From Ignavibacteriota bacterium (GTDB lineage Bacteria; Bacteroidota; Ignavibacteria; UBA10030; SZUA-254), in NCBI GenBank assembly GCA_016212665.1, contig JACREZ010000005.1, forward strand, positions 1 to 64,000: a DNA stretch of 64,000 bases, in the 5' to 3' direction. A program made the translations under genes and the position numbers. A model generated the notes under the pieces. It searched no databases and had not been told where the DNA came from. It saw only the letters and a program-made list of their open reading frames with translations. Within the stretch, counting starts at the first letter, position 1; the number at the start of each line of letters is the position of its first letter. Shown here one piece after another: positions 6,868-57,075 of the stretch.

Positions 6868-7098
6868 ACATTGTCAGTGAAAGAGAAATCTTTGTGCGAA
6901 ATAAATTTGTCTTTGTACGTGAAAGAGCCGTCTATTATGAGTGAAGGTTGTTCTTTCTTGAGTGAAGATGCGTCTCGGATGGATGAAGAGACCTCTTTTT
7001 ATGATGAATGAGTGACTTCTTTGGAAGAAGATTGTTCTTTATACGATGAATGTCTGTCCAGATACGATGAAGGAATGGACTGAACGGGTGAACTTATG
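6868..7098 (+). repeat. 21-bp periodic array, 11 degenerate units (A1)
   Basis: Eleven consecutive units of exactly 21 bp with no length slippage across 231 bp. Unit starts at 6889, 6910, 6931, 6952, 6973, 6994, 7015, 7036 and 7057 mostly begin TCT or TCC and carry GATGAA or GTGAA near the middle. Read as codons, each is seven residues of the type S-L-Y-D-E-x-x, but a TGA interrupts near 7009, so it is not an intact protein. Downstream of the restriction gene. Confidence 0.75.
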
Positions 7099-7185
7099 AT
7101 TGGTGTGGTGTAGTTCTCTCATCGGAGCATGGATGATGAGTTGTAGGAGGTTGAATTATTGGAGCAATTACTTGAAGTGAAAGAG

Positions 7186-7244
7186 GGGGTCCGCATTCTG
7201 TCCTACTTTCGATAGTGAGATTGCTTCGCTACGCTGCTAATGAC
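7186..7244. repeat. Dispersed GATTGCTTCGC repeat copy
   Basis: CGCATTCTGTCCTACTTTCG followed by AGATTGCTTCGC and TAATGACA. It matches the copy at 31583-31679 and, inverted, the one at 134-207. Intergenic, imperfectly palindromic, no coding capacity. Confidence 0.65.
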
Positions 7245-7300
7245 ATACAGTATAGAGAATTGATTCTGCTCGTTTCAGTTGTATCTAACTCATCCCCCAT

Positions 7301-7326
7301 CCCCTTCCCTTACACAAGGGAAGGGG
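7301..7326. repeat. Perfect 11-bp palindrome
   Basis: CCCCTTCCCTT, a four-base ACAC loop, then AAGGGAAGGGG. No T-run follows, so it is a palindromic repeat rather than a terminator. Confidence 0.7.
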
Positions 7327-7591
7327 AGTGAGAGGCTGGGTTTGGTAGTAAAGAGCACAATGTCATTCACATTATTTCATAAAGCGTGCTTTATTCCTCT
7401 TCTCGCAATGACCATTCGGCAGCACTATCACTAAGGAATTTTGATAGATACGTTATAGGCAACCACGTTAGAAATATTATTCTACCAGCAGTTGCACCTT
7501 TAGACAAGACAATTAAGATTGGTAATCGTTCAAGGGAGAGAAATTAATAGTGTCGAAGGAAATTGGACATTGAACATTCAAAAACGGTGGC

Positions 7592-7623
7592 TTTGAAATC
7601 ACTCTGCATTTGCTTATATTTTG
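7592..7623 (+). promoter_or_regulatory. Promoter of the M23/bactofilin/ATP synthase block
   Basis: TTTG at 7592-7595, 19 nt, then TATATTTTG at 7615-7623, a good match to the Bacteroidota -33/-7 consensus. It lies about 70 bp upstream of the peptidase start. Confidence 0.5.
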
Positions 7624-7691
7624 CCCGACTTTTTAGGAAAATGGTATCTGAATTGCGCTCTACCCTACGGGTCGTAGATGAGTTATAACTG

Positions 7692-8594
7692 ATGTCTGCT
7701 GAAAATGCCCCTCGCCGTAAAGGCTTAGATAATTATACTATTGTATTTGTCCCGGGCGACCAATCGAAGAAATCGAGGTCGTTTGGTGTTAATTCACTTG
7801 GAATTATTGGGATTGTTGTGAGCGCGATTGCGTTTATTGCGGTTAGCATTCTTGCGGTGATTGTTTATACTCCTCTCGGAACGTATCTGCAATTCGCTTC
7901 GCCGGAAATTGAACAGTTGTACGGTCAACGAGTTCAGCAAATACAGACCGAGTTGACTTCGTTGATGAATGAAGTTCATACATTGCAGTTGTATAATATA
8001 CAACTGCGGAAAGCGCTCGGTGAAAATGTGGGCTTGAATGGAAATCAGCAGGGAAAAGAGAGCGTGAGTCAGGAATCAATCAGTAACAATCAACCGGAGA
8101 AGCAGATACAGACTTCGTTGGTTGTACAGGAACATGAAAAAACAAGAATTGCGCAGACTCAAGGTTCAGTGAGTAGTAGGTTCAGTTCGATTCATAGTTC
8201 TACGGTGAACGAAGAGTTTCGATTTCCGTTGGCGATGCCGGTGATTGGTTATACGACCCGCGGGTTTGACATGGATGGAAATCATTTTGGAATTGATTTG
8301 GTAGCAAAAGAGGGGAACCCGGTCGTAGCGGCGGCGCACGGAAGTGTGTTGTACGCAGACTGGACGTATGATGATGGTTGGACGATGATTGTTGCGCATG
8401 GTGACGGATACACGACTGTGTATAAGCATAATAAACGTTTGTTGAAGCAACGTGGTGAAAGTGTGAAGCGTGGAGAAAGTATTGCATTATTAGGGAATAC
8501 CGGGCGCGCAAGTTCGGGACCGCACGTTCATTTTGAAGTGTGGAAGAACAGCGTTACACTAAATCCATTGGATTATATGAACACGATTCAATAA
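7692..8594 (+). CDS. M23-family peptidoglycan endopeptidase, membrane-anchored
   Basis: 300 residues: a cytoplasmic N-terminus, one membrane helix (about 37-60), a coiled-coil-like linker (70-110), a Gln/Ser-rich spacer, and a C-terminal LytM/M23 domain (about 177-297). Zinc ligands are visible as HFGID (His198, Asp202) and HVHFE (His278/His280), with His236 nearby. The enzyme should cleave peptide cross-links of the wall. It is followed after 15 bp by a bactofilin gene, a common pairing in which the bactofilin scaffold localises the hydrolase. Confidence 0.92.
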   Translation: MSAENAPRRKGLDNYTIVFVPGDQSKKSRSFGVNSLGIIGIVVSAIAFIAVSILAVIVYTPLGTYLQFASPEIEQLYGQRVQQIQTELTSLMNEVHTLQLYNIQLRKALGENVGLNGNQQGKESVSQESISNNQPEKQIQTSLVVQEHEKTRIAQTQGSVSSRFSSIHSSTVNEEFRFPLAMPVIGYTTRGFDMDGNHFGIDLVAKEGNPVVAAAHGSVLYADWTYDDGWTMIVAHGDGYTTVYKHNKRLLKQRGESVKRGESIALLGNTGRASSGPHVHFEVWKNSVTLNPLDYMNTIQ

Positions 8595-8609
8595 GAAAGA
8601 ATAGTCGCC

Positions 8610-9002
8610 ATGAAAAATGAACCATCTGCCGGAATCAACCTGATTGGTCTCGGAACTGTGCTTGAAGGAAAACTTCGTTCTCCCGGAGATATTCAGATTG
8701 ACGGGAAAGTAGTCGGTGAAATAACCGCATCACAAAATATCTCTATCGGTTCTTCGGGTGATGTCGAGGGGAACATAAACGCTCGGAACATTACAATTGG
8801 CGGAAAGATTAAAGGGACAATCATCGCACAGGAAAAGTTGATGTTTCAGAACAAAGCGGTTGTGCGTGGTGATATTCGTGCCGCAAAATTGGTGATTGAC
8901 GAGGGCGCGTTGTTTGATGGAAATTGTTCGATGGGCGAAGCGAAACAGATGCCGAGTGTCGTCGAGTTGAAACCTGAACTGCGGAAAGCAGAAGGTCGTT
9001 AA
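8610..9002 (+). CDS. bacA: Bactofilin (polymer-forming cytoskeletal protein)
   Basis: 130 residues, almost all a right-handed beta-helix of the bactofilin (DUF583) family: repeated glycine- and isoleucine-rich turns such as GDIQIDGKVVGEI, SGDVEGNIN, GGKIKGTI and AVVRGDIRAAKL. Bactofilins polymerise without nucleotides and recruit wall enzymes. The upstream M23 peptidase fits that role. The stop codon directly abuts the next start, so the three genes are probably one transcript. Confidence 0.93.
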   Translation: MKNEPSAGINLIGLGTVLEGKLRSPGDIQIDGKVVGEITASQNISIGSSGDVEGNINARNITIGGKIKGTIIAQEKLMFQNKAVVRGDIRAAKLVIDEGALFDGNCSMGEAKQMPSVVELKPELRKAEGR

Positions 9003-9269
9003 GTGATGCTACCCCCCGAAGAAAAGAAGAAGGGGGAGAGCGAAAAGTTTGGAAAAACTTTCCGTGAGTCGGGACAGTTTCTTGGCTCAGGAATACAGAT
9101 GGCGGCGGCAGTGGTGATTATGTACTTCGTAGGAATCTGGATAGATGGAAAGTTTGAAAGTGCGCCGTGGGGAATGATTGTGTGTGTGTTCTTTGGCGCA
9201 ACTGCGGGTTTGGTTCACTTTATTAGAGAAGTGAATGAGTTGAGTAAGAAAGAAGCAAAGAAAAAGTAG
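9003..9269 (+). CDS. atpZ: AtpZ/AtpI-family ATP synthase accessory protein
   Basis: 88 residues with a charged N-terminus, two membrane helices (about 33-50 and 57-74) and a lysine-rich C-terminus, as in the AtpZ family found at the head of ATP synthase operons. The motif GxxxDxxFxxxPWG is partly visible as IWIDGKFESAPWG. The start is GTG at 9003, directly after the bactofilin stop, or ATG at 9006. Proposed roles are ion uptake for, or assembly of, the rotor ring. Confidence 0.82.
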   Translation: MMLPPEEKKKGESEKFGKTFRESGQFLGSGIQMAAAVVIMYFVGIWIDGKFESAPWGMIVCVFFGATAGLVHFIREVNELSKKEAKKK

Positions 9270-9293
9270 CGTTACCATAAATGATAACGCTAC
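9266..9293. repeat. 9-bp stem-loop spanning the atpZ stop
   Basis: GTAGCGTTA and TAACGCTAC form a perfect 9-bp stem around a 10-nt loop; the left arm includes the TAG stop. There is no T-run. It could be an RNA-processing or mRNA-stability element. Confidence 0.5.
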
Positions 9294-9304
9294 ACCTAAC
9301 AAGC

Positions 9305-9324
9305 CCCGTAAACGGGACTTTTTT
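9305..9324 (+). terminator. Short hairpin with T-run in the operon
   Basis: CCCGT-AA-ACGGG followed by ACTTTTTT. It could terminate or attenuate transcription between atpZ and the next membrane gene. The stem is only 5 bp and the loop 2 nt, so strength is doubtful. Confidence 0.45.
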
Positions 9325-9398
9325 CTGGAGTCCGATTCATTGGACTTGATTAATAAAAGCGTGACCGTTTACGGTCATGCGGATTTCGTAAGGTAGTT

Positions 9399-9773
9399 TT
9401 GTCATTTCCCAAGCAGGTATTGTTTGCATTGCTGTGTATAAGTGTCTTCGGAAGTTATCCGTTGTACGTGTATGGCGATGGAGAAATGATAAAAGCCGCG
9501 GTAGTTGGTGCGGTGTTGGCAACGGTCAATGTGTTGCTTGGTTATATGGCGATAGAACATTCGTTTAACAAGTCTGCGACGACGTTTTTGAAAGTCGTGC
9601 TTGGCGGAATTGGAATACGGATGTTTGTGTTAGCAGGAATCATTGTCGTGCTGATTAAGTTCGTAGAGATGAATATTCCTGCATTAATCGGTTCGCTCGG
9701 TATATATTATGTCGTCTATTTGACGCTCGAAGTTCTTTATATCAACAAAAAAGTTAGTGTAAGACAACAATAA
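9399..9773 (+). CDS. AtpI-like membrane protein of the ATP synthase operon
   Basis: 124 residues with four predicted membrane helices (about 5-22, 30-50, 60-85 and 92-113) and a basic C-terminus. Its position between atpZ and atpB and its topology suggest the ATP synthase I family that accompanies F0 genes, although sequence motifs are weak. The start is a TTG at 9399 with AAGG upstream. It ends 9 bp before atpB. It may assist c-ring or Mg2+ handling, by family analogy only. Confidence 0.65.
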   Translation: MSFPKQVLFALLCISVFGSYPLYVYGDGEMIKAAVVGAVLATVNVLLGYMAIEHSFNKSATTFLKVVLGGIGIRMFVLAGIIVVLIKFVEMNIPALIGSLGIYYVVYLTLEVLYINKKVSVRQQ

Positions 9774-9782
9774 ATTTTGTAA

Positions 9783-10703
9783 GTGTTTTTTAATTCAGAA
9801 TCAATAGAAACAAGTCAGCATGGCGCGGCAGATACTCTTCATGCTGTCGCGCAAGCAAGTGAGCATGGTGAAGGGGGTGGAAACTTATTCACCGAATTGC
9901 TTCATCACTTAAATGATACGCACGAGATAGAATATCCGGGCGGTCATTTTGAACTTCCTCATTTTCCTCCAGTCGAAATCGCTGGGTTGACGATTGATTT
10001 ATCGCCAACGAAGCATGTAGTCTTCATGTGGCTTGCCGCCGCACTGCTTCTATTTATAACAATCAAAGCCGCGAGGAAAAATTCCAAGAGTCTCGTTCCC
10101 AAAGGACTTGGAAATCTCATCGAAGTGTTTGTGCAATTCATCCGTGATGAAGTTGCAATGCCGAACATGGGGAAAGGTGGGATGCAATACTTACCCTATT
10201 TACTCACGACGTTTTTCTTTATCCTTGCAATGAACTTGCTTGGATTGATTCCGTATGGCGCATCAGCGACAGGAAACATCAGCGTTACGCTTGCGCTTGC
10301 GGTAATTGCATTTATCATGATTCAACTCTCGGCAATCAAAGCGGGTGGGATTGGAAATTATCTCAAGCATTTGACCGGCGGCGTTCACCCGATGCTGTGG
10401 CCCATTATGATTCCGATTGAAGTTCTCGGACTTTTCACCAAGCCGTTTGCGCTGTGCATTCGTTTGTACGCAAACATGACAGGCGGTCACATCGTCATTG
10501 TTTCGATGATTGGATTGATTTTCTTATTCAAATCATATTTGATTGCGCCGGCTTCGGTTGGATTTGTCGCGGCAATCAACATGCTTGAATTGTTCGTAGC
10601 GTTTTTACAAGCATATATTTTCACCATGCTCACTTCATTGTTTATGGGACTCGGTATTAAAGCGGCTGAGGAACACCATGGGCATGAAACGCATGGACAT
10701 TGA
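9783..10703 (+). CDS. atpB: ATP synthase F0 subunit a
   Basis: 306 residues, longer than the E. coli subunit because of a His/Glu-rich N-terminal extension of about 70 residues (repeated H.E.GGG and HH). The conserved core includes NLLGLIP (151-157) and the essential arginine in CIRLYANMTGGH (Arg227), which faces the c-ring. Five to six membrane helices are evident. The start is GTG at 9783. First of the structural atp genes here. Confidence 0.95.
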   Translation: MFFNSESIETSQHGAADTLHAVAQASEHGEGGGNLFTELLHHLNDTHEIEYPGGHFELPHFPPVEIAGLTIDLSPTKHVVFMWLAAALLLFITIKAARKNSKSLVPKGLGNLIEVFVQFIRDEVAMPNMGKGGMQYLPYLLTTFFFILAMNLLGLIPYGASATGNISVTLALAVIAFIMIQLSAIKAGGIGNYLKHLTGGVHPMLWPIMIPIEVLGLFTKPFALCIRLYANMTGGHIVIVSMIGLIFLFKSYLIAPASVGFVAAINMLELFVAFLQAYIFTMLTSLFMGLGIKAAEEHHGHETHGH

Positions 10704-10866
10704 AGCTAAACTTCATTATTCATCATTCAGAATTCGATATTCATTATTAACCATGTAGTTAATTTGAATTATGAATATCGAATGTCGAATATAGAATGTA
10801 GAACATAATAAACATTAAAATTTTTAACTCGATAATTATTATTCATTAAACATCAGGAGATATAGA
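10704..10866. repeat. Inverted AT-rich repeat between atpB and atpE
   Basis: The gap carries ATTCGATATTCATTATT and, inverted, AATATCGAATGTCGAATATAG, a member of the dispersed ATTCGA/TCGAAT family also seen at 16401-16506, 38371-38491 and 42952-43345. The atpE ribosome-binding site AGGAGA lies at 10856-10861. Confidence 0.6.
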
Positions 10867-11097
10867 ATGGAAGCATTAGGTTTAGGTTACTTAGCAGCAG
10901 GAATTGGCGCGGCATTAACGGTTATCGGAGCCGGACTCGGCATCGGTAAACTTGCGGCGGCGGCGATGGATGCAAGCGGACGCCAACCCGAAGTTGCAGG
11001 ACAGGTTCGTACGTCAATGTTGATTGCAGCAGCACTCATCGAAGGCGCAACGTTCTTCGCACTTGTTATCTGCATCATTCTCGCAACAAAATCATAA
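10867..11097 (+). CDS. atpE: ATP synthase F0 subunit c (proton type)
   Basis: 76 residues forming a two-helix hairpin. The polar loop is GRQPE (38-42) and the ion carboxylate is Glu59 in LIEGATFF. The Na+-type signature (a Gln about 13 residues before the loop Arg, and Glu-Ser/Thr at the carboxylate) is missing: Ile and Glu-Gly stand there. A proton-driven ring is therefore expected. Glycine repeats GAGLGIG support tight helix packing. Confidence 0.95.
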   Translation: MEALGLGYLAAGIGAALTVIGAGLGIGKLAAAAMDASGRQPEVAGQVRTSMLIAAALIEGATFFALVICIILATKS

Positions 11098-11243
11098 CAT
11101 TGACGATTGAATCATTTACGATTGTATCATTGATGATTGAATAATTTATTCGATGACTCAATGATTACATCGTCAATCTCCGCCAAGGGCGGATGCGCCT
11201 ATGGCGCAGTCAATTGTTTAAATAATCAACCCAAGGAATACCA
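11098..11243. repeat. Repeat-filled gap between atpE and atpF
   Basis: TGACGATTGAATCATTTACG-like direct and inverted repeats are followed by two small hairpins, CCGCC-AAGG-GCGG and TGCGCC-TAT-GGCGCA. The atpF ribosome-binding site AAGGA lies just before 11244. No coding region. Confidence 0.55.
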
Positions 11244-11729
11244 ATGTTAGAAATAAATCCGGGACTTGTTGTCTGGACAACTATAACGTTTGTTCTTCTT
11301 GTTATCGTTCTGAAGAAGGTTGCCTGGAAACCGATTCTTGAAGCGTTGGAAAAGCGCGAAGAACATATTCGACTTTCCATCGAAAAAGCGGAACAGGGAA
11401 GAACGGAAGCGGAACGGTTGCTTGAACAACATCGTCAACAGTTAGCATCTGCTGAAACCGAAGCGCATAAAATTATCAAGGAAAGCCGTGAACTTGCACA
11501 AAAGTTGAAGGCAGAAATTGAAGAGACTGCGAAGAAGCAGGCACATGCAATTGTTTCTCAGGCGAAAGCGGAAATCGAACGCGATAAAGATGCGGCGCTC
11601 GCACAACTGCGCGGCGAAGTTGCCGATTTGGCAATTCTTGCCGCCGGAAAAATACTCAACGAAACGCTCGATGCGAACAGGCATCGGAAGTTAGTTGACG
11701 ATGTGTTAAAATCATTGCCGAAGAATTAA
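11244..11729 (+). CDS. atpF: ATP synthase F0 subunit b
   Basis: 161 residues: one N-terminal membrane helix (about 6-23), then a long charged coiled coil rich in Glu, Lys and Gln (about 30-140), the peripheral stalk. The sequence VAWKPILEALEKREEHI is typical of bacterial b subunits. Only one b gene is present, so it should form a homodimer. The gap to atpH is 6 bp. Confidence 0.94.
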   Translation: MLEINPGLVVWTTITFVLLVIVLKKVAWKPILEALEKREEHIRLSIEKAEQGRTEAERLLEQHRQQLASAETEAHKIIKESRELAQKLKAEIEETAKKQAHAIVSQAKAEIERDKDAALAQLRGEVADLAILAAGKILNETLDANRHRKLVDDVLKSLPKN

Positions 11730-11735
11730 CGGACG

Positions 11736-12281: not shown

Positions 12282-12317
12282 TTTGTACATCTATTTTGGA
12301 AATGAAAAGGAACATCA

Positions 12318-16812: not shown

Positions 16813-17505
16813 ATGAGCAATATCAGTAGTGAAGGATTAGAAGACGAGTATCGGAGTATTGATGCTCTCTGTACAACATACGCAAGCGTTTTAGAAAAGC
16901 GCGGCGTTACTGCCGAGGTGCGCGCCAATTACGCATCGGCGATTAACACCATGACGATGAAACGCGCAGCGTACTATTCGGCAGAATCATCGAAGGAAGA
17001 ATTGACACGCGAGGAAAAACAAGCGCGTGCAGAACTTCTTACTGTCATCAACGCGTTTCGGCAGGCGGCGAAGGATACCTTCCCGGCTCGAAGTCCGCTC
17101 CTCAAAAAATTTCATGTCGGCGATAACCACGGCAACTCGACCAAGACGTTGCTTGCATGGGCGGACGACATCAAACAAAATTTCTCTCCGGAGAATGCAC
17201 CGATGAAACAGAAGGGAGGAATCCTCGATGAAGACCTTGACGCTTTAACAAATGAGCGTATCAATCTCGCCTCGAAAGACTCACAACAAAAAACGATGGA
17301 GACCTCGACCATACCGACTGCGTTCAAAGAACTCACCACCTCGATGAACGATGTGAAAACGATTGCCGACTTCATCCAGGGGAAAGCGAAGATGGTCTTT
17401 GCCAAAGATAAAGTGACGTTGAAAAAATTTGAGCAAGCGAAGCGACTCCGCTTCACGCAACCCGGCACAAAACCGAAAGCCCCCGAACCACCTCCGGCGA
17501 AATAG
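16813..17505 (+). CDS. Uncharacterised helical orphan protein (paralogue of 439-1131)
   Basis: 230 residues, helical, no recognised domain, no signal sequence. It aligns over its full length with the product of 439-1131 (LEKRG.T, IN.FR.AAKD.F, SP.LK.F.VG, GGIL.ED, ADFI.GKA...FAKDK) and ends in a proline-rich tail KPKAPEPPPAK. A second set of orphan genes at 46622 and 57244 has comparable context. A 13-unit 21-bp array begins 36 bp after the stop. Unknown function; the duplication and shared upstream motif suggest a mobile or expanding family. Confidence 0.8.
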   Translation: MSNISSEGLEDEYRSIDALCTTYASVLEKRGVTAEVRANYASAINTMTMKRAAYYSAESSKEELTREEKQARAELLTVINAFRQAAKDTFPARSPLLKKFHVGDNHGNSTKTLLAWADDIKQNFSPENAPMKQKGGILDEDLDALTNERINLASKDSQQKTMETSTIPTAFKELTTSMNDVKTIADFIQGKAKMVFAKDKVTLKKFEQAKRLRFTQPGTKPKAPEPPPAK

Positions 17506-17541: not shown

Positions 17542-17814
17542 CCGTTTCGGTTCTCTACCAATCTTTTGGATGCAGAGACGCGTCTGTTTGATTTCATGAG
17601 CCGGCTATTCCATTCGTATAACGTTCTATTTGACTTCTCTAACAAAAATGTTCATCTCTATAGTAATCTATTGCGCTTACATAAGAAACTTTTTGGTTTC
17701 TATGGACAGATATTTGGGTTCTATAGGAGGATATTGTGTATGTATGAGCGGATAATCGGTTTCTTTTCCTCAATTATGGTGTATTTGGGGAATATTTTGA
17801 GTTTTTGCTTTATC
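17542..17814 (+). repeat. 21-bp periodic array, 13 degenerate units (A2)
   Basis: Thirteen units of exactly 21 bp. The best-conserved units start at 17584, 17626, 17689, 17710 and 17731 and follow the pattern nTATTTGGTTTCTATGG plus four variable bases. In one frame, which stays open to 17898, they read as heptapeptides such as L-F-G-F-Y-G-Q and I-F-G-F-Y-R-R. No ribosome-binding site or plausible protein family supports translation, so it is listed as a repeat. It follows the 16813 gene directly. Confidence 0.8.
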
Positions 17815-17992
17815 CGAAGTTGGCGTGGTGTTGGAGTTGAGCGTGGTGGTGATGATATAGGAAATAATTTGTGCCACTCACTTCTCAGACGAAAGTAGTA
17901 ATGGTTACGAGTTTTTTTTTCAAAAAGAGAGGTGAATGGGATTTTCGTTCACTAATTCATAGAAAAAATTCCGCCACACGGACAAGTTTATT

Positions 17993-32685: not shown

Positions 32686-33632
32686 ACTCGAACAATCATT
32701 ACAAAGTAATTATTATCGGCTCAGGTCCGGCAGGATTGACTGCCGCGCTTTACACAGGACGAGCAAATCTTAACCCGCTTGTCTTTGAAGGACATCAGCC
32801 CGGTGGACAACTTACGATTACGACAGAAGTCGAAAACTATCCCGGATTTCCTGAAGGGATTCTCGGTCCTGAATTGATGGATTTATTCAGAAAACAGGCG
32901 CAACGGTTTAATGCCAAGACGCTCTTTCAGGATGTTACCAAAGTGGATTTCTCTCAGAGTCCGTTCAAAGTTTGGTCTGATACGGAAGAATACACTGCTG
33001 ACTCAGTTATCATTTCGACAGGAGCATCAGCAAAATTGTTGAACATCGAATCAGAAAAGAAATTTATGGGCTACGGAGTTTCTGCCTGTGCGACATGCGA
33101 CGGATTCTTTTTCAGAGGATTGGAAGTAGCAATCGTCGGCGGCGGTGATACAGCGCTGGAGGAAGCTAATTATTTAACACGGTTCGCTTCAAAAGTACAT
33201 GTCATTCATCGAAGGGACCAACTTCGTGCATCAAAGATTATGCAGGAACGGGCAATGGCAAATCCGAAAATTTCTTTCATTTGGAACTCGGCAGTTGAGG
33301 AAGTGCTTGGAAAAGAGGAAAACGGGAGAAAATCAGTTACAGGTGTTCGTCTAAAAAATCTCAAGACAGGTGGCGTTAATGAAATGAAACTGGATGGCTT
33401 GTTTGTCGCAATCGGACATCAACCAAATGTATCGCTGTTCAAGGGACAGATTGAAATGGATGAAAAGGAATACATTAAAGTGAAGTCGGGTTCAACTGCG
33501 ACAAATATTCCCGGAGTATTTGCGGCAGGTGATGTAGCAGATTCTGTTTATCGTCAAGCTGTTACAGCGGCAGGTTCAGGTTGCGCCGCGGCGATAGATA
33601 CCGAACGGTATTTGGAAACTTTGCACCTGTAA
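32682..33632 (+). CDS. trxB: Thioredoxin reductase
   Basis: 316 residues, flavoprotein of the TrxB family. FAD-binding GSGPAGLTAALYTGRANL near the N-terminus, redox-active CATCD (about 135-139), NADPH motif GGGDTALEEANYL, and the C-terminal FAD motif GVFAAGDVAD. It reduces thioredoxin with NADPH. Coupled to queG by an ATGA overlap, an unusual but plausible operon since both depend on reducing power. Confidence 0.97.
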   Translation: MNSNNHYKVIIIGSGPAGLTAALYTGRANLNPLVFEGHQPGGQLTITTEVENYPGFPEGILGPELMDLFRKQAQRFNAKTLFQDVTKVDFSQSPFKVWSDTEEYTADSVIISTGASAKLLNIESEKKFMGYGVSACATCDGFFFRGLEVAIVGGGDTALEEANYLTRFASKVHVIHRRDQLRASKIMQERAMANPKISFIWNSAVEEVLGKEENGRKSVTGVRLKNLKTGGVNEMKLDGLFVAIGHQPNVSLFKGQIEMDEKEYIKVKSGSTATNIPGVFAAGDVADSVYRQAVTAAGSGCAAAIDTERYLETLHL

Positions 33633-33910
33633 GAATTTTTAGTTTGTAGTTTTGGGTTTTTAGTTTTGGTTTGAAGTTTCCTGTTTCCTGTTTTCAGTTT
33701 ACGGTTTTTACATTTCTCTGATACGACAGATTGACAGCCAAGCGATGAAAAATTTGCTCCAAAAAAGACAGCCTGACAATGGAAGATGGAACAAGATTTA
33801 TATTACTTTGATTTCAAACAAAAAACAAAGTCTTCCTTTTGGCACAATGATTGAAAATAGAAGAAGCACAATCATTCAATCAATCATTCACAATATAAAG
33901 GAAAATATTT
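33633..33910. other. Non-coding gap before hsp20
   Basis: The 278-bp gap begins with T/G-rich simple sequence (TTTAGTTTGTAGTTTTGGG type) and ends with the Hsp20 leader. No CIRCE inverted repeat is visible. A short open frame at 33745-33981 overlaps the hsp20 start and is not supported. Confidence 0.5.
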
Positions 33911-46064: not shown

Positions 46065-46210
46065 GTATTGACTGGGATTTTTTTTTTCTTTATCATTACA
46101 CTCGTTGGTCAAATGATTATTTCCATTCAATAGTTATTGAAAGTTGAATCCATGACGATATATTCCTTTTTTGAGCAATGCCCCAAATTTCATCAGAAAC
46201 GCATTTCCGC

Positions 46211-46378
46211 CGTCGGAAATTGATGCCTATGGGACGGAAATCGTTAACTATCTTTCGGAAACCGCTAACTATGCTTTGGAAATCGCATACTATCCTTTTG
46301 AAATCGCCAACTATCCTTCGGAAATTGGTAACTGTACGACGGAAAAGGTCAACGTGAGAATGGAAAGCCTATTCTCCG
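46211..46378 (+). repeat. 21-bp periodic array, 8 degenerate units (A3)
   Basis: Eight consecutive units of 21 bp; the consensus is CCNTCGGAAATCGCNAACTA. In one frame it reads P-S-E-I-A-N-Y-type heptapeptides and stays open to about 46473, but no start signal supports a protein. It ends about 243 bp before the 46622 orphan gene. Confidence 0.8.
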
Positions 46379-46621
46379 GTTCGGATGTGGTTAACGGATG
46401 GATGGATGCGATATTCTCGGCAATGAAAGTGTCAACTATCAAATTTGACTTAAATTTAAGGATTAGTAGTTGAGCAATTTAGCATGTCTTACAAATGAAT
46501 GATGTAAAGAAATTATTTGTAATGTAATGCAAGATAAGATTTGTATTGTTATGTATGATAATGAGTTACAAGATTCAATTCACTTAATTAACTAATATCT
46601 AACAAACTAAAGGAACAAATT

Positions 46622-47347
46622 ATGAGTCGTCCGAAAGAAGTAGTTCGACTATATACAATGGCAGATTCTGATATGATGCAGGTATCGGAGAAAACCCGCG
46701 AAGCATTTATTGAGGATAATGCAGATTTTCAGGCATTCGACCCTGATTTTAAGGACCCGTATGCCGCGAACTGGCAGTCTGAGATTGATGCCGCTAAAAG
46801 CGTACCAACCGATAATGTCATAGTTGACACTATGACGATTTTAACCACTGCCACAGAAAATGCGATGGAGTTATGCCGGAATAAATTTCAGTCAATGAAG
46901 TTTTTCATCGAGAAAGCATTCCCGAATAAGACTTCTATCTGGAATGAGTTCGGGTATAACGATTATGACAGGTCGAGGACATCTCATCCGCTGATGATTT
47001 CGTTTATGCGCGATCTCTATGCAGTTGCACAAAAATACAGTGCGGAACTGATTGCGAAAAATTTTACGCAAGCGATGATTGATGAAATCGGAACGTTATT
47101 GAACCAATTGAACAGTTCCGATACGGCGCAGGAAGCATACAAAGGTACCCGCGAGGTCCTGACGCAGAATAGAATTATTCTCCTGAACCAAGTCTGGACA
47201 ACGACGGTGACAGTATGCAGAGCCGGGAAGTTGATTTACATGAACAACTATGCGAAGTACCAACGCTACGTGTTGCCGGGCGACCCGACGACTCCGGATG
47301 AGGAACCACCTCCGCCACCACCGGACCAGCCGCCGCCTACGCCGTAG
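46622..47347 (+). CDS. Uncharacterised helical orphan protein with proline tail
   Basis: 241 residues: a predicted helical bundle (about 1-210) with the segments FFIEKAFPNKTSIWNEFG, LAVAQKYSAELIAKNF and a C-terminal YAKYQRYVLPGDPTTPDEE leading to a poly-proline tail (PPPPPPDQPPPTP). The layout, with a helical core, basic segment and proline-rich end, is like the 16813 gene, with little sequence identity. AAAGGAAC precedes ATG 46622. It lies downstream of a 21-bp array. Function unknown. Confidence 0.75.
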   Translation: MSRPKEVVRLYTMADSDMMQVSEKTREAFIEDNADFQAFDPDFKDPYAANWQSEIDAAKSVPTDNVIVDTMTILTTATENAMELCRNKFQSMKFFIEKAFPNKTSIWNEFGYNDYDRSRTSHPLMISFMRDLYAVAQKYSAELIAKNFTQAMIDEIGTLLNQLNSSDTAQEAYKGTREVLTQNRIILLNQVWTTTVTVCRAGKLIYMNNYAKYQRYVLPGDPTTPDEEPPPPPPDQPPPTP

Positions 47348-47473: not shown

Positions 47474-47558
47474 CGGAAAATTTTTACAGGTGTTGCTGGT
47501 GATACGGTGATGCCCAAGAAAACCAGGTAAAACTTGACTGAAACAATTGGACACAGGT

Positions 47559-49325
47559 ATGAAATATAAAAAATTCATTATAGAAAATTATCGAGGTATA
47601 ACTGATAGAATAGAAATTAATGTAGAAAAAAAATCATTACTACCTATCATTGGGATTAATGAATGCGGTAAAACAACAATCCTCAATGCCATTTATGCTT
47701 TTGATTATATGAATGATTGGCAAAATAAAACGTTTTCACACCTAACCGATATCATGAATCTCTATAAAGTTTCTAGCGGCATTTGTAGTATATCAGCAGT
47801 AGTGAATGTTACCAAGGCAGAATTGAAGGAATCGATGAAAAGTAAACTACAACTTACCGATACAAATGCTGATGAAAAGCTTAAGAGATTTTATGATACT
47901 AAGGAGTTTGAAATCACAATTACTCGAAAATTAGTTTATCAAAACAATCAATTATCAAGTTTTTATGAGTTCTACCCTAAACTATCCCTGAAAAATCCAA
48001 GTGAGGAGAATGATTTTTGTAAAGAACTAATTCTAAAACTACCCTACATACTTTATTTCGATGACTTCAGAGAGATATTTCCCGATATAATAGAAATTAC
48101 CAGTGAGAATCAAAATGTAGGATGGCTTCCTATAATACAAGAATTATTTATTCAGACTGATGAAAGTTATTCAGTTTATGATTTAAAAAATTTAGAAGAG
48201 AGGAGAAGAAAATCCATTCTTGCACAAGTCAAGAGAAAATTGAATGCAACGTTGACAGCACAATGGTCAAATTTTAGATTAGAAAATAAAGACGCTCTTG
48301 AAATCGATATAGATTTTAAGATTGAAAATAAAGTTACTCCTGTAATAAAAGAAATTAGGCAAGGCAATAATGTTGTAAAGCAAAGACATGATCAAGAAAT
48401 CGAAAAATATTTTTTAAAATTCGATCTTATAGAAAGGGATTCCAATGGGATAGAACATTATTTTTATATAAAAAATAGAAGTAAAGGATTTTATTGGTTT
48501 TTTAATTTTGTTATGAAATTAGAATTCAATCCTGATAAAGCTGGTGATCTTAATAATGCAATATATTTACTTGATGAGCCTGGATCTTATTTACACCCAT
48601 ATGCACAGACTAAACTTTGTAAAAAATTAAAAGAGCTATCCAATGAGAATATAGTTATTTATTGTACACATTCTCATTATCTGCTAAATCCAGAAACAAT
48701 ACCACTAAATAATATTCATGTTGTTAACAAAAATGAATTAGGTGACATTGTAATAAATCTGTTCCATCAATATCAAAATCAAAAGAGTAAGGGTGTTGAA
48801 ACAGCATTTCAAACTATTAATGAGGCACTATTTTTAAAACCTTTTGATATTGATATTAATAATAAAAAAATAATGATTGTAGAGGGTATTTATGACTACT
48901 ATGCGTATTCATTATTTAATCACAGCAAGGAATTCAGCATTTTACCGGGAAAGGGATCTGAGTCGTTGATAAACTTCATTTCATTAATGATAGCATTTGA
49001 AGTTGATTTCCGTGTTCTTTGGGATAACGATTCATCGGGAAATATAAGTTATGAAAAAGCAAAAACATTTTTTGGTGATGAAATGGCAAACAAGCATTTC
49101 TTCTTATTACCATCTAAAAATGGAAAGAAAAGAATACTACAAGATTTATTTGAGCCAATCGATTTAAGCATGATTAATAATGCACTACAACTAAATGATA
49201 AAGTATCTTTTGAAAAAAAGATATCGTCTCTTTTTTTCGATGAAAGCAAAAATGAAATTGTTAAAAAGATATCTCAAAAAACAAAAGATAATTTCAACAA
49301 TGTGTTTAGGTCAGTCATTTATTAA
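47559..49325 (+). CDS. OLD-family ATPase/TOPRIM nuclease
   Basis: 588 residues from ATG 47559. Walker A is GINECGKTT, the ABC-type D-loop region is IYLLDEPGSYLHP, and a TOPRIM module follows with the glutamate in IVEGIYDYYAY and the LWDNDSSG acidic pair. OLD nucleases of this kind are antiviral (P2 Old, GajA of Gabija). No UvrD-like partner gene (as in Gabija) is adjacent, so it would be a class 1, single-gene form. The gene is very AT-rich compared with the flanks, suggesting horizontal acquisition. Confidence 0.85.
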   Translation: MKYKKFIIENYRGITDRIEINVEKKSLLPIIGINECGKTTILNAIYAFDYMNDWQNKTFSHLTDIMNLYKVSSGICSISAVVNVTKAELKESMKSKLQLTDTNADEKLKRFYDTKEFEITITRKLVYQNNQLSSFYEFYPKLSLKNPSEENDFCKELILKLPYILYFDDFREIFPDIIEITSENQNVGWLPIIQELFIQTDESYSVYDLKNLEERRRKSILAQVKRKLNATLTAQWSNFRLENKDALEIDIDFKIENKVTPVIKEIRQGNNVVKQRHDQEIEKYFLKFDLIERDSNGIEHYFYIKNRSKGFYWFFNFVMKLEFNPDKAGDLNNAIYLLDEPGSYLHPYAQTKLCKKLKELSNENIVIYCTHSHYLLNPETIPLNNIHVVNKNELGDIVINLFHQYQNQKSKGVETAFQTINEALFLKPFDIDINNKKIMIVEGIYDYYAYSLFNHSKEFSILPGKGSESLINFISLMIAFEVDFRVLWDNDSSGNISYEKAKTFFGDEMANKHFFLLPSKNGKKRILQDLFEPIDLSMINNALQLNDKVSFEKKISSLFFDESKNEIVKKISQKTKDNFNNVFRSVIY

Positions 49326-50453: not shown

Positions 50454-50466
50454 TATATTTTTCTCG

Positions 50467-50528: not shown

Positions 50529-50631
50529 AATAGATGGATTAACTGTACTTTAATATTTAATACTGAGTCCTGTCAGTCTCTAAAATGAAAACCTTGTATT
50601 GGGTGTAAATGTTAGCAACGTTAAGAAACAC

Positions 50632-51456
50632 TCACTTCACCGGAAAATATCCAACCTTATTTACAATCTCTTGTCCTTCTTTGCTGAGAGTCCAATCAAT
50701 GTATTCCTTCAGCGCTCCTGTAGGTTTGCTACGGAGATACATGTAGAGGTAACGTGAGATGGGATATTTATCACTCTTCACGTTCTCTTCTGTCGGTTCG
50801 TAGGCTTGGGAGTTTGCATCTTCTTTCACTTTGAGGAATCTGATTCCTTTGCCGTATGCCGCGCCGCCGTAGCCGATGCCGTTTTTATCTTTTGCGATTG
50901 CGTTTACCACTGCGGCGGTGCCGGGCATGTTCTGCGCGCTCGGTGCAAAGTCGTCTCCGTTCAAAACATTATCTTTGAAATAGACATACGTGCCTGAGTT
51001 GTTCTCACGGCTGTATAAAATAATCTTTGCATCGTTCCCGCCAACTTGTTTCCAATTGGTGATATTGCCCTTATAAATATCCCGAATTTGTTCGAGCGAT
51101 AATTCTTTTACAGGATTTGATTCGTGAACGTACAATGCAATGCCATCTTTCGCCGCTTTGATTTCAACGCCGAGTGTGTTGTACCGTTGTTTGAGTTTTT
51201 CTTTTTCTGATTTTTTCATCGGACGTGATGCGTTGCAAATATCGGTTGTGCCGTTGATGAGTCCGGAGATTCCCGTTCCCGAACCGCCGCCTGTAACTTG
51301 TATCGTTACGCCCGGATGTTTCGACATGTAAATCTCCGCCCATCGTTGAGCGAGAATGACCATCGTGTCTGAACCTTTCACGGTAATCGTTTCGCCCTGT
51401 TGCATGAAGCCAAATGTTGTAAGAGCGATGATGAGTGTGATGATGATGTTTTTCAT
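50632..51456 (-). CDS. pstS: Phosphate-binding periplasmic protein PstS
   Basis: 274 residues with a signal peptide (MKNIIITLIIALTTFGFM), KGSDTMVILAQRWAE, TGGGSGTGISGLINGTTDI, and the SRENNSGTYVYF ligand region. It feeds phosphate to a PstCAB transporter. On the minus strand downstream of the porin gene. PstCAB genes are not in the window. Confidence 0.95.
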   Translation of the reverse strand: MKNIIITLIIALTTFGFMQQGETITVKGSDTMVILAQRWAEIYMSKHPGVTIQVTGGGSGTGISGLINGTTDICNASRPMKKSEKEKLKQRYNTLGVEIKAAKDGIALYVHESNPVKELSLEQIRDIYKGNITNWKQVGGNDAKIILYSRENNSGTYVYFKDNVLNGDDFAPSAQNMPGTAAVVNAIAKDKNGIGYGGAAYGKGIRFLKVKEDANSQAYEPTEENVKSDKYPISRYLYMYLRSKPTGALKEYIDWTLSKEGQEIVNKVGYFPVK

Positions 51457-51485
51457 TTGTTATTCCTTGTGTTGTTGTTACTATT

Positions 51486-51505
51486 CCCACAGCTAAAGCT
51501 GTGGG
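51486..51505. repeat. 9-bp hairpin between pstS and the porin gene
   Basis: CCCACAGCT, AA, AGCTGTGGG: a perfect stem; no T-run on either strand. Possibly controls the relative abundance of the two mRNAs. Confidence 0.6.
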
Positions 51506-51592
51506 CGGTATTATTTTTGAAATCGAAAATCATAAATCTTGAATCCTGAATCATTAATCGCCAATCAGCAATTAGCATTCAGAAATCAGAAA

Positions 51593-52915
51593 TTAAAATT
51601 TATACTGCGCTCTGAGAGTAAACACGTTATCTTTCACATCATCTTTGAACGAGGAGAGAGAACCTGTTGCTGACGAGTTTATTTTTTCGTTCGAGACCAT
51701 GTCGTAGTAGAGAACAAATTTCACGTTCTGGTCCCAATGATAAATCCAACCCAAACCAAGCGTACTGAATTTTACATCGCCGGAGGTGAGATTGCTTCCG
51801 CTTGCACCAATGTCGTTTCCTTCAACGTCGGAGTTCGGGTCATAGACATCGTATTTTAACATAAATTGGTGTTGCAAGCCAATGTTCTGAATGTAATTGA
51901 GGTACCAGCCGGAAAAGTTTCTCAGGTATAATGCACTTGTGGAAGTTGCCGGATTATAAAACTGACTCGATGAAGAAGTCCCGGGTTGTTTACCTGTTAT
52001 GTATTCGCCACGAAGCGACATTCCGCCAAGCACAGGTAAATCATAATACGTTTGTACGTCGAATCCATAGTATGTTCTGCCAAAGGCATTGAGTGAATCT
52101 GAAGTTGCAGAATGGAGTTTGTATGATTTTGTTGCCGAAGAGTTATCGAACTCGTACACTTTCGAGTTATTGCTCAACACTTTTCCTGAATAGAGAGAGA
52201 AGCCGCCATCAATTGCAAGATTTTCTTCTTCAAACGGAAGCGTGAAACCAAGTCGTCCAATGAAATCTTTGTTGTTATCATTTTCATTCGCGTTGGGTTG
52301 AACGCCGTTGAAAATTCCTGCTTTCAAATTGAAGTAACTGAGCGAACCTAATTCCGGTGCGACTTCTATTTTTGCTCCGAGTTCTCGCTCGCCCGGGAAG
52401 AGTGTCTGATACATTCGTGAACGCTCCGGCGTTTCGCGACTTGAGGATGAATAGGAAATTTCAAATCCAAACGGTCTATCAAAAACTCCGGCAGTCAAAC
52501 CAATTGTTCTCAACCACGGCTCTTTGATTGAAACGTACGCGTCTTTAATCCCGACGCCGCCTTGCGTTACATCAATTTGTAACACTGCTTGCGTGAGGTC
52601 GTTATCGTAATTGACTTTGACTCGTCCTCGACGGACTTGAAAACGTGAATCGCTGAAGGCAGGGAAATCACCGCCCGCAAATGATTTGGCTCCTGCCGTA
52701 TCAGCAATTTGAAATTGTGCCTGAATGTACCCCGACACTTTGATTTTCTTCAACGCATCGAGCGTTGTTTTCATTTCGAGCATGGTTTCGTTCATGCCAT
52801 CGAGTGCCCCCTTGACTTCGCCAAGTTCATCATCGGTGGCGATGTTGGTTGTGTCCTGGGAAAAGAGTGGAGTTGAAAGAGTGAGAAATATCAAGAATAG
52901 TAAAAATGTTTTCAT
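51593..52915 (-). CDS. OprP/OprO-like phosphate porin
   Basis: 440 residues from the ATG at 52915 (an earlier start at 52945 is possible but has no ribosome-binding site; AAAGG lies 6 nt before 52915). A signal peptide (MKTFLLFLIFLTLSTPLFSQ) is followed by a short coiled coil, then a beta-barrel in phosphate-selective porin O/P style: SGYIQAQFQIADTAG, RVKVNYDNDLTQA, ending with alternating strands ...TLRAQYKF. Co-directional with pstS, so likely induced together by phosphate starvation. Confidence 0.9.
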   Translation of the reverse strand: MKTFLLFLIFLTLSTPLFSQDTTNIATDDELGEVKGALDGMNETMLEMKTTLDALKKIKVSGYIQAQFQIADTAGAKSFAGGDFPAFSDSRFQVRRGRVKVNYDNDLTQAVLQIDVTQGGVGIKDAYVSIKEPWLRTIGLTAGVFDRPFGFEISYSSSSRETPERSRMYQTLFPGERELGAKIEVAPELGSLSYFNLKAGIFNGVQPNANENDNNKDFIGRLGFTLPFEEENLAIDGGFSLYSGKVLSNNSKVYEFDNSSATKSYKLHSATSDSLNAFGRTYYGFDVQTYYDLPVLGGMSLRGEYITGKQPGTSSSSQFYNPATSTSALYLRNFSGWYLNYIQNIGLQHQFMLKYDVYDPNSDVEGNDIGASGSNLTSGDVKFSTLGLGWIYHWDQNVKFVLYYDMVSNEKINSSATGSLSSFKDDVKDNVFTLRAQYKF

Positions 52916-53091
52916 CAGTAACCTTTTATTAATTGAACGGTGCAAATATATCAGTTCAATGTTACTGCCTGTTTAAGCGTGTGTTACGGAATTGTTAAGT
53001 TCGGAGAGGGAGAATGTATTTCTTCATTTCTCACCTTTTTCCTACATTAGTGCCGAAAATTTTATCTCATCTTAATCAGAAAATCAATTTT

Positions 53092-55845
53092 ATGGCTACG
53101 AATCTCAACTCCTTCAAAACAAAATCATCTCTCACCGTCAACGGGAAACCGTACTCGTTCTTTTCACTGAAACACTTGGAACAATCAACAGGAAAAAGTC
53201 TTGCACGACTTCCAATCTCCTTAAAGATATTGCTCGAAAATCTTCTTCGACAGGAAGACGGTCGCTCTGTACACAAAGCAGATATTGAAGCATTGATGAA
53301 TTGGAATCCGACGGCAACTCCTGATAAAGAAATTTCTTTTATGCCGGCTCGTGTGTTATTGCAGGATTTTACCGGAGTTCCGTGTGTTGTTGATTTGGCT
53401 GTCATGCGAGATGCGATGGTGAAGATGGGGGGCGACCCGAACAAAATCAATCCGCTTCAACCGGTTGATTTGGTGATTGACCATTCCGTGCAGGTGGATG
53501 AATTCGGAACTCCGAATGCCTTCATGCAAAACACTGAGTTGGAGTTCGAGCGAAACAAAGAACGCTACATGTTTTTGAAATGGGGACAACAGGCGTTTTC
53601 AAATTTCCGTGTTGTGCCGCCGGAAACCGGAATTGTTCATCAGGTCAATTTGGAATTTCTTGCCAAAGTAGTGTTCACAAAAGAAGAAAACGGAGAAACA
53701 TTTGCCTATCCCGATACGCTTGTCGGGACGGATTCGCACACGACGATGATTAACGGACTTGGTGTTCTCGGCTGGGGAGTTGGTGGAATTGAAGCAGAAG
53801 CCGCTATGCTTGGTCAACCGTGCGCAATGTTGATTCCGCAAGTTGTCGGATTCAAATTGTTCGGGAAACTTCCCGCCGGAGCAACTGCTACGGATGCGGT
53901 TCTTACAGCAACACAAATGTTAAGAAAGAAGGGAGTCGTTGGAAAGTTTGTAGAGTTTTACGGTGAAGGATTGTCAACACTCAGTCTTGCAGACCGTGCA
54001 ACGATTGCAAACATGGCTCCGGAATACGGCGCAACGATGGGATTCTTCCCTCCGGATAAGGAAACGCTGAACTATCTCAGATTAACAGGACGAAGTGAGG
54101 AACAGATTGCACTTGTAGAAGCGTATTGCAAAGAGCAAGGAATCTTCCATACAAAAGAAAGCGCAGAAGCAATCTTCTCCGACACGCTCGAACTCGACCT
54201 CTCGACAGTCGAGCCAAGTCTTGCTGGACCGAAACGACCGCAGGATAGAGTTACACTTTCCGGCGTGAAGAAATCATATCGCAAGGCAGTCACCGAGTAC
54301 GTGTCATCGAAGGGACAATCACTTGATGCCGGAGTATTGGAGAGATGGAGTGATGGAGTGACGAAAGTAGAAGTGTTGGAGAAGTCTGTACCTGTTCAAT
54401 CGAACGGAAGCGCTTACAATGTTAGCAACGGCTCGGTAGTAATTGCGGCGATTACGAGTTGCACGAATACATCGAACCCGAATGTGTTGATTGCGGCTGG
54501 ATTGCTTGCAAAGAAGGCTGTTGAACGAGGATTGAAAGCGAAACCGTGGGTGAAGACAAGTCTTGCTCCCGGTTCAAAAGTCGTGACAGAATATTTATTA
54601 CAGGCAGGATTGATGCAATACCTTGAGCAAGTCGGGTTTTATCTTGTTGGATATGGATGCACGACCTGCATTGGTAACAGCGGACCATTGCCCGAGCCTG
54701 TCAGCAAAGCAATTCAGGAAAATGATTTAGTGGTTGCGGCGGTTCTTTCAGGAAACAGGAACTTTGAAGGAAGAGTGAACGCGCAAGTACGGGCAAATTA
54801 TCTTGCATCGCCGCCGTTGGTGGTTGCGTACTCACTCGCCGGAACGATAGATTCCGATTTGAACACGCAACCAATCGGCACAGATAAAAACGGTAACTCG
54901 GTCTATCTCAAAGAACTATGGCCCACACCTGAAGAGATAGAACGCGCTGTTGCTTCGTCGGTTCAATCTTCGATGTTCAAACGTGTGTACTCAAATGTGT
55001 TTGAAGGAGACAAACATTGGAGTGAGTTGCCTGTGCCGAACGGTTCACGATTCGAATGGGACGATATTTCCACGTACATCAAAGCCGCGCCGTACTTTGA
55101 GAACTTACCGAAAGAACCATCGCCTTTGAAAGATATTTCCGGAGCGAAAGTTCTTGCGTTGCTTGGCGATTCCATCACGACCGACCATATTTCTCCTGCG
55201 GGAAATATCGCAAAGACAAGTCCTGCGGCTAAATATCTGACAGGAAATAATGTTCAGCCGAAGGACTTCAATCAATACGGAGCAAGGCGCGGCAACCACG
55301 AAGTGATGATGCGAGGAACGTTTGCAAACATCCGCTTGCGAAACATGCTCGCCCCGGGAACGGAAGGAGGTTGGACGGTTCATCATTCATCGAAAGAACC
55401 GCTTCCGATTTTTGATGCGTCGGAGTTGTACAAGAAGGAAGGAACGCCGTTGCTTGTGCTTTCAGGGAAAGAATATGGCTCAGGTTCTTCTCGTGATTGG
55501 GCGGCGAAAGGTCCTGCATTGCTTGGTGTGAAGGCAGTCATTGCAGAAAGCTATGAGCGCATTCATCGAAGTAATCTTGTCGGGATGGGTGTTCTTCCGT
55601 TACAGTTTGAAGAAGGACAAAACTACAAGACACTTGCCTTGACCGGATTTGAAACCTTTGAGATTCAAGGAATTGCGGAGAACATGCATGCAGGAAAGAA
55701 ACTCACGGTGAAAGCAAGTAGCCAAGATGGAAAGGTAATTTCCTTTACCGCTCTCTGCCGGATTGACACGCCAATGGAACTTGATTACTACCGCCACGGT
55801 GGGATTTTGCAGTATGTGTTGAGGAGTTTGTTGAAAGAAGACTGA
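53092..55845 (+). CDS. acnA: Aconitate hydratase AcnA
   Basis: 917 residues from ATG 53092 (a longer frame from 53014 lacks a supported start). Iron-sulfur cysteines lie in [11 protein letters not shown] and the later [20 protein letters not shown] and [13 protein letters not shown] are classical. It interconverts citrate and isocitrate in the TCA cycle and may bind RNA under iron loss. It is the longer AcnA/IRP-type, not AcnB. Confidence 0.96.
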
Positions 55846-55849
55846 TATT

Positions 55850-56323
55850 ATGAAACAATCAGTGTATATTGAAACCAGTGTAATAAGCTATTTGACTGCA
55901 AAACCCAGTAGAGATATTATCGTGGTTGCTCATCAACAGATAACGACCGAATGGTGGTCAGAACGAAAGAATAATTATCGGTTGTTTGTTTCCGAAATCG
56001 TTTTCCAGGAAGCAAGCAAAGGCGATGTCGAAGCAGCAAGTAAAAGAATGGAAACAATTAAATCGCTTGAGATGCTTTCATTAACTGAGAACGCGCGCGA
56101 ACTAACGCGTATTATTATCAACAAAGGAATAGTCCCCATTGAGCATGTAGAAGATGCATTGCATATCGCAATTGCAAGTGTGCATGAGATGGATTATCTT
56201 TTAACATGGAATTGCAAACACATTGCAAATGCTGAAATTCAAAAAGATTTGAAAAAACTTGTACACGAATCCGGATATACGTTGCCGGTCCTCTGTACTC
56301 CAGAAGAATTATTAGGAAAATAA
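55850..56323 (+). CDS. PIN-domain protein (VapC-like)
   Basis: 157 residues: the N-terminal VYIETSVISYLTAKPSRD carries the first acidic residue as Glu (normally Asp), LFVSEIVFQEASKGD the second, and EHVEDALHIAIASVHEMDYLLTWNCKHIAN the C-terminal set. Starts 4 bp after the acnA stop, so it may be co-transcribed. The small gene after it is its likely antitoxin. Confidence 0.85.
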   Translation: MKQSVYIETSVISYLTAKPSRDIIVVAHQQITTEWWSERKNNYRLFVSEIVFQEASKGDVEAASKRMETIKSLEMLSLTENARELTRIIINKGIVPIEHVEDALHIAIASVHEMDYLLTWNCKHIANAEIQKDLKKLVHESGYTLPVLCTPEELLGK

Positions 56324-56324
56324 T

Positions 56325-56501
56325 ATGTGGTCGGACCCGATTGTAGAAGAAGTAAGAAAATACAGAGATGAACATGCTCGGAAATTCCATTATGATATTG
56401 ACCGGATTTATGAAGACCTAAAAAGTTCTGAAGAGCAAAGACGGCAACAGAATAGTGTTCGAGAGGAAAAAGTAAAATATTCATACGCAAAAGAAAAGTA
56501 A
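56325..56501 (+). CDS. Small partner of the PIN protein, probable antitoxin
   Basis: 58 residues: MWSDPIVEEVRKYRDEHARK, then FHYDIDRIYEDLKSSEEQRR and a charged tail. This matches the small helical proteins that accompany this class of PIN proteins, downstream rather than upstream. It starts one base after the toxin stop. The order is the reverse of usual VapBC. Confidence 0.75.
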   Translation: MWSDPIVEEVRKYRDEHARKFHYDIDRIYEDLKSSEEQRRQQNSVREEKVKYSYAKEK

Positions 56502-56788
56502 TTCAGACTTGGTCCCACGCTCCAAGCATGTATGAGGTCAACGATAAGTTTTTGGGAATAGGAATAATATACAGATGCTCTGAGTCCAGCAAAAGAAAAC
56601 AGATTATGAACCAAACTCTGCACAAAATATTTGATGTTGAATTTACGTTTGATTACACTTCAGGAATCAACGCGGAGCGTAGGAATGAGTTATAAATTTT
56701 GACTCCACACCCAAATCAAAATTGTCCCATTGCATGGGATGCGCAGGTTGATATCAGGCGATTCTGTTACCGAGAATGTCAGAAAACT

Positions 56789-57075
56789 TGCTACGGTCGG
56801 AGGGAATATTGAAGGCAACATGAGGGGGTATTGGTATGGTTAGAGGGGATGTTGAAGGCAACATGAGGGGGGTTGGTATGGTTTGAGGGGATGTTGAAGG
56901 CAACATGAGGGTTGTTGGTACGGTTTGAGGGGATATTGAAGCCAACATGAGGTGATGTTGGTGCGGTTTGAGGGGATGTTGAACCCAATAGCGGGAACAA
57001 TAATGCGGTTTGAAGGGTCATTGAAGATAACATTGGCACATGTTGGCGATAACATGGCGGGCTGTTATGCGAGAA
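56789..57075 (+). repeat. 21-bp periodic array, 42-bp higher order (A4)
   Basis: Units alternate between GGATGTTGAAGGCAACATGA and GGTTGTTGGTACGGTTTGAG types (each with one further base), repeating every 42-43 bp, with about 13 half-units. GTTGAAGGCAAC in half of them can fold into a mini-hairpin. The end lies about 170 bp before the 57244 orphan gene. Reverse frames read M-L-P-S-T-S-P / Q-T-I-P-T-P-L heptads but are spurious. Confidence 0.8.

Follow-up and report, generated by a model that had tools for sequence, protein, structure and literature searches.

Tandem arrays with a fixed 21-bp period and variable sequence are linked to orphan gene families in Bacteroidota

Four tandem arrays with different units and a common 21-bp spacing lie in a 64-kb window (the whole stretch of DNA analysed, 64,000 nucleotides), raising the question of what keeps the period constant and whether the arrays belong with the orphan genes beside them. 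All four occur near the positions given by the initial annotation, which further described them as having little slippage, with a 42-43 bp super-period in A4, and placed three of them within 0.3 kb of orphan genes; these descriptions hold (Table 1). With every lag scored over 126 bp, A3 reaches a self-match of 0.70 at lag 21. A4 reaches 0.73 at lag 42 (126-bp scoring), with a single 43-bp step among its 42-bp units. A1 and A2 show weaker self-match (0.54-0.55 at lag 21 and 0.60 at lag 42), keep register without indels and are weak or old arrays. Across the 64-kb window, no lag from 15 to 41 other than 21 exceeds a self-match of 0.49. A2 starts 37 bp past gene 16813 (P0003), and A3 and A4 are positioned ~0.2 kb ahead of genes 46622 (P0001) and 57244 (P0002), respectively.

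Table 1. Positions of the arrays, the orphan genes and a gene remnant in the 64-kb window
Feature	Position	Strand	Description
P0004, orphan gene	439..1131	+	paralogue of 16813, 36% identity
A1, 21-bp array	6868..7098	no strand	~11 units; solo, no family gene adjoining
P0003, orphan gene	16813..17505	+	230 aa, Pro-rich tail
A2, 21-bp array	17542..17814	no strand	between P0003 and P0002-type gene remnant
P0002-type gene 3'-end remnant	17816..17869	+	54 bp; 85% identical to L031 gene end
A3, 21-bp array	46206..46394	no strand	~9 units, core CGGAAATCGCTAACT
P0001, orphan gene	46622..47347	+	241 aa, Pro-rich tail
A4, array	56789..57061	no strand	42-bp higher-order unit of two 21-bp monomers
P0002, orphan gene	57244..57864	+	206 aa, helical N-terminal domain and fn3-like C-terminal domain

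The source genome of the window (G000), Ignavibacteria-like and 3.9 Mb in 45 contigs, was sampled over 335 kb, counting segments with a self-match of at least 0.50 across 105 bp. Such segments number 13, 10 and 9 at lags 21, 42 and 63, respectively; lags 19, 20 and 22 have none, and each remaining lag above 14 has at most two. Segments of a 7-bp class number 21 and 15 at lags 7 and 14. The long periods that dominate this sample are 21, 42 and 63 bp, and the 7-bp arrays are a separate kind. Together, the self-match peaks and the 335-kb lag spectrum, in which the excess at 21 bp predicted by the initial annotation is present, confirm the 21-bp periodicity and extend it genome-wide.

Within G000, all three members of the P0001 family carry an upstream array, the two paralogues of gene 46622 (44 and 41% identity) each being preceded by one of 21/42-bp period. 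The P0002 family comprises nine full-length members and four C-terminal fragments; the array lies upstream of seven full-length members and 190-345 bp downstream of the other two. A distant family member (L017/L058) has an array 63 bp upstream, and an A3 relative at C9:91274 precedes another family gene. The 438 bp separating gene 439 from the contig end contain no array. Since A2 lies between gene 16813 and the remnant of a 57244-type gene end, it may well have belonged to that lost gene. Arrays also occur alone, as A1 and several others (L006, L010, L014, L016 and L018) have no adjoining family gene. An A3 copy at C3:90474-90584 (87% identity over 111 bp), likewise lacking a family gene, has a sigma-factor operon on one side and a histidine kinase-like gene on the other. 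The P0002-type C-terminal fragments are located at C32:134754-134942, C19:39813-40004, C8:10390-10518 and C33:760-867, and the 3' ends of some are closer to each other than those of the full genes are. On C32, P0003- and P0002-type fragments occur together, in an order matching that of the window.

The linkage, formulated on this genome, was tested on homologues elsewhere, comprising 48 loci in 23 genomes: the Ignavibacteriae MAGs JACPVN and JAGXRH, a Chitinophagaceae MAG and Bacteroidota genomes from profile searches. An array of 21/42-bp period was counted if its end fell within the span from 700 bp ahead of the start codon to 80 bp past it. Such arrays are present at 38 of the 48 loci, in 19 of the 23 genomes, with a self-match of at least 0.6 at 32 loci, and control period pairs applied to the same 48 loci yield a mean of 5.25. 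Ordinary genes of at least 150 aa carry an upstream array in 0/174 cases in genomes without the families and in 19/319 cases in genomes with them, where a self-match of at least 0.6 is reached once (1/319). The corresponding Fisher p-values, 7e-34 (vs 0/174) and 3e-28 (vs 19/319), are indicative only, because the loci are partly dependent, start codons were guessed and some homologues are weak matches. Arrays end a median of 61.5 bp from the start codon. Three family genes in G283 have no array. The enrichment near homologues that the initial annotation anticipated is thus borne out, and its proposal of array and orphan gene as a single unit is largely supported: the linkage at 38/48 loci and the 21-bp excess stand, and the solo arrays depart from it. 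A 240-aa orphan whose 3' end carries a 42-bp array (L110:17527-18529, G188) possibly represents a further family of this type.

A third family extends the association to another phylum. The array at L015 lies ahead of an orphan gene of 124 aa that lacks a Pfam match, and strong arrays lie upstream of its members in G000 (self-match 0.92), in G159 of the Bacteroidota (0.68) and on plasmid pn1 of Nostoc sp. UHCC 0926 (0.95), the one plasmid relative found. The Nostoc array was predicted before the upstream DNA was inspected, against a background on pn1 of one such array per 150 kb examined, and its unit TGCATTCATAATGCA forms a near-perfect hairpin. Among single-copy orthologues of the third family in Bacteroidota family f9, arrays reach the threshold in 0/9; this clade and the three array-less genes of G283 indicate that the gene can do without the array. 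Arrays of 21-bp period precede several families of uncharacterised small-protein genes across Bacteroidota and in at least one cyanobacterium. Plasmid pn1 bears two more 21/42-bp arrays (L174:6358-6560 and L128:2305-2587) with no evident family gene.

hhalign identifies P0001 and P0003 as homologues (probability 94%, E 1e-7), and profile comparison detects no significant homology between either and P0002. P0001, P0003 and P0004 end in charged, Pro-rich C-terminal tails. The P0002 model (mean pLDDT 74) is composed of a long-helix N-terminal domain followed by an fn3-like sandwich; many PDB fn3 chains are among the best matches of this C-terminal half, with target TM-scores of ~0.5-0.6 over single domains and a best E of just 2.5e-3. 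None of P0001-P0004 matches Pfam or PADLOC, and a single weak PHROG match is the only hit; searches of the P0002 family return no match of note in Pfam, and none in NCBIfam (P0002 family alone) beyond one weak SMC match. The family genes apparently form single-gene transcription units, and their proteins appear cytosolic. The gene product is a poor candidate for binding the array, because the family proteins have a median pI of 5.6 and Pfam detects no DNA-binding domain in the window genes and relatives scanned. A viral origin was considered and rejected: P0002 has no relatives in phage records, and neither the P0002 nor the 124-aa family has any in viral contigs. Defence- or TA-like genes, including a HerA helicase, a DNA methylase, an AAA/OLD-like ATPase and genes of PIN-domain and nucleotidyltransferase type, lie near family genes at window positions 2604-5798, 47547-49325 and 58320-58727 and at L015:11183-13859. 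Restriction, HEPN and nucleotidyltransferase genes are among the family-gene neighbours; the comparison with random genes, whose proteins are longer and also match many PADLOC models, shows no decisive enrichment.

Coding potential was assessed in 42 arrays adjoining family genes, oriented to the gene; the few that are AT-rich or contain masked bases were excluded from later tests. Stop-free frames are about equally common on the two strands (25/126 sense, 23/126 antisense), all three frames contain stops in 22/42 arrays in sense and 24/42 in antisense, variability in the 42 arrays carries no codon-phase signal, and their mean GC and AT skews are about zero. The arrays are non-coding. That they encode heptapeptide repeats or small repeat proteins, as the equivalence of 21 bp to seven codons and the mechanical reading frames crossing A2 and A3 might suggest, can be given almost no probability and was rejected on the stops and the missing codon-position bias; long open frames are frequent by chance because the period is 21. 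The "seven-codon" label of the initial annotation is numerology only.

The units show a modest statistical excess of dyad symmetry over column-permuted arrays (mean z +0.64, SE 0.16, n=40), which is not universal and is missing from many arrays. Folding energy is reduced similarly on both strands (mean z -1.08 and -0.87), and the comparison reveals no clear strand difference in RNA structure (n=53). Symmetry and folding excess alike on both strands would be expected of sites at the DNA level rather than of a strand-specific RNA. Phase-locked GGAA/TTCC occurs in 9/59 arrays (0.4 expected), the carriers spanning many species without being universal, and the GGAAATCGCT core is restricted to three G000 arrays plus one single-site match elsewhere. 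A search of the window for known RNA families matches tRNA alone, and a search of the array-to-gene gaps for a shared promoter -7 element gives nothing consistent.

The period is constant and the sequence is not. Unit consensus sequences are unrelated between loci, and the best period is 21 or 42 in 40/40 arrays adjoining family genes, never 20 or 22; these 40 were chosen at lags 21/42, after which all lags from 10 to 69 competed. At the orthologous loci L028 and L042, the flanks align and the gene block is ~80% identical; the arrays do not align beyond their edge, yet both have period 21. In G182, which contains at least seven family copies, paralogous proteins are 80% identical and their arrays have diverged. 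The array diverges more quickly than the adjacent protein, which speaks against that protein binding it in a sequence-specific manner. Whole array-gene blocks duplicate: L028 and L029 share a block, 96.8%/91.9% identical, bounded at each side by a terminator hairpin. No common 3' end of the array-gene unit was found. A separate pair in G050, L161 and L166, has 94% identical DNA over a tract that begins exactly 7 bp ahead of the start codon and extends 14 bp past the stop. Upstream of it the DNA is unrelated, with a strong array at one locus and none at the other; this ORF-exact identity fits gene conversion or ORF-exact mobility.

With high confidence, the unit consists of a non-coding array, in which a 21-bp monomer (often in the form of 42-bp dimers) recurs ~8-20 times, just upstream of a small gene from one of at least three families; the monomer sequence is arbitrary and turns over rapidly, and its length is constant. 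For its mechanism we tentatively favour, at a probability of roughly 0.4, a cis element to which a sequence-tolerant protein would bind at intervals of two helical turns, its spacing being under selection. The putative protein, probably dimeric, would take one site per two turns, so that all sites would share the same face of the DNA and bound proteins could polymerise along the array, which would act in cis on the downstream gene. Since many arrays reach ~60 bp from the start codon, the promoter would be covered by the bound array or precede it, and expression might thereby be held back or insulated. Unequal recombination would renew the units in whole 21-bp steps, and selection would act on spacing, not on letters. 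The mechanism draws on the linkage, the constant period of sequence-variable units, the dyad and folding excess on both strands and the short gap to the start codon; against it count the poor suitability of the gene product as a binder, the many arrays without dyad excess, the solo arrays and the array-less genes of f9 and G283. A broader version is doubtful: a spacing-only code, in which a two-turn, 21-bp lattice of arbitrary letters is selected before unrelated orphan families in more than one phylum and is recognised by a protein through its period or shape, not its letters. If true, it would be a cis code independent of sequence and would give bacterial constant-size satellites their first assigned role.

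Three other readings compete with the cis-element mechanism. Transcription of the array as a repeated 5' leader or a separate small RNA, in which a hairpin series or sponge would control translation, possibly by binding the gene product, is unlikely, while agreeing with the scant promoter room left by arrays that end ~60 bp from the start codon, with near-perfect hairpin units such as that of Nostoc, and with the transcription of 52-nt bacterial satellites in B. coagulans described in PMC8625621 and PMC8161180. Against it are the nearly equal structure excess on the two strands, the absence of strand skew and the exactness of a 21-nt period that has no clear reason in single-stranded RNA. A mobile element, with array and gene travelling together through chromosomes and the array serving as an end or recombination tract, is improbable: the dispersed, patchy, multi-copy families (nine full copies and four fragments in G000, at least seven in G182), the near-identical L028/L029 block between terminator hairpins, the gene-less A3-like array at C3:90474 and the derivatives that retain only the gene 3' end point towards it, but Pfam, PADLOC and PHROG scans of the genes detect no transposase or recombinase, no shared terminal sequence was found, an unsystematic look revealed no target duplication, the copies have no conserved array sequence, and the ORF-limited identity of L161/L166 also fits gene conversion.

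Neutral satellites, in which an ancestral 21-bp period is kept by whole-unit slippage and persists in weakly constrained regions upstream of fast-evolving orphans, are rather improbable. In principle, an inherited period combined with slippage could maintain 21 bp in the absence of selection, which is an objection to the cis-element mechanism, and the quick array turnover at L028/L042, the arrays found away from family genes and the array-less f9 single-copy clade, whose gene does not need an array, all agree with neutrality. However, neutral indels would themselves be amplified and the period would drift, whereas 21 or 42 is best in 40/40 arrays across two phyla, including P0002 and other families with no detectable common origin, and the enrichment over ordinary genes is too strong. 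The link to defined families offers a first handle on function, with a gene that can be deleted, a promoter or leader that can be assayed and a period that can be altered. If spacing rather than sequence is selected, the arrays would represent an unusual regulatory DNA that ordinary alignment methods miss.

Several known systems combine repeats with genes. Iteron arrays and the parC/tubC centromere repeats are ~17-22 bp direct repeats with whole-turn spacing beside a small-protein gene, and their sequences differ between systems. The present arrays resemble iteron replicons as two-turn tandem direct repeats beside a small gene but differ from them in three respects: the family genes have no Rep or partition domain (Pfam; NCBIfam for the P0002 family), the array is not conserved together with the protein (L028/L042, G182 paralogues), and the arrays are chromosomal with many copies per genome. 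CRISPR and TIGR arrays also lie near genes; in contrast to them, the arrays here have no constant repeat with unique spacers, a far shorter period and no Cas-like neighbour noted.

The closest published counterparts, described by Subirana and Messeguer 2021 (PMC8161180), are tandem repeats in bacteria that keep a constant size (52 or 20-21 nt) while varying in sequence, reported from Bacillus, Cyanobacteria, Actinobacteria and others. That text notes 21 nt as two helical turns, leaves function open, offers a nucleoid or small-RNA role only as a guess and calls the repeats enigmatic. Like the arrays here, those repeats are 20-21 nt (and 40-41), mostly non-coding, with several unrelated families per genome and no sequence conservation. 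The present arrays, with fixed length in 40/40, unrelated sequences and no coding content, fit this constant-size, variable-sequence kind. The accessible portion of PMC8161180 describes no gene linkage, unlike the arrays here, which are tied to at least three orphan families at a strict 21/42 bp in Bacteroidota, and no report of a gene link for constant-size repeats was found in the literature readable without subscription. The repeat kind itself is already published, and the new part is the linkage of arrays to genes. The accessible text of PMC4679880 describes abundant intergenic TAACTGA heptamer direct repeats in Beggiatoaceae, a single fixed 7-bp sequence as opposed to the 21-bp period and arbitrary sequence seen here; the 7-bp arrays of G000 are their closer parallel. 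These 7-bp-period arrays are intergenic, occurring at window positions 10679-10890, 33587-33755, 51448-51667 and 62029-62195 and at L018:10447-10690, and have AATCC/GGATT-like cores with halves that are sometimes inverted.
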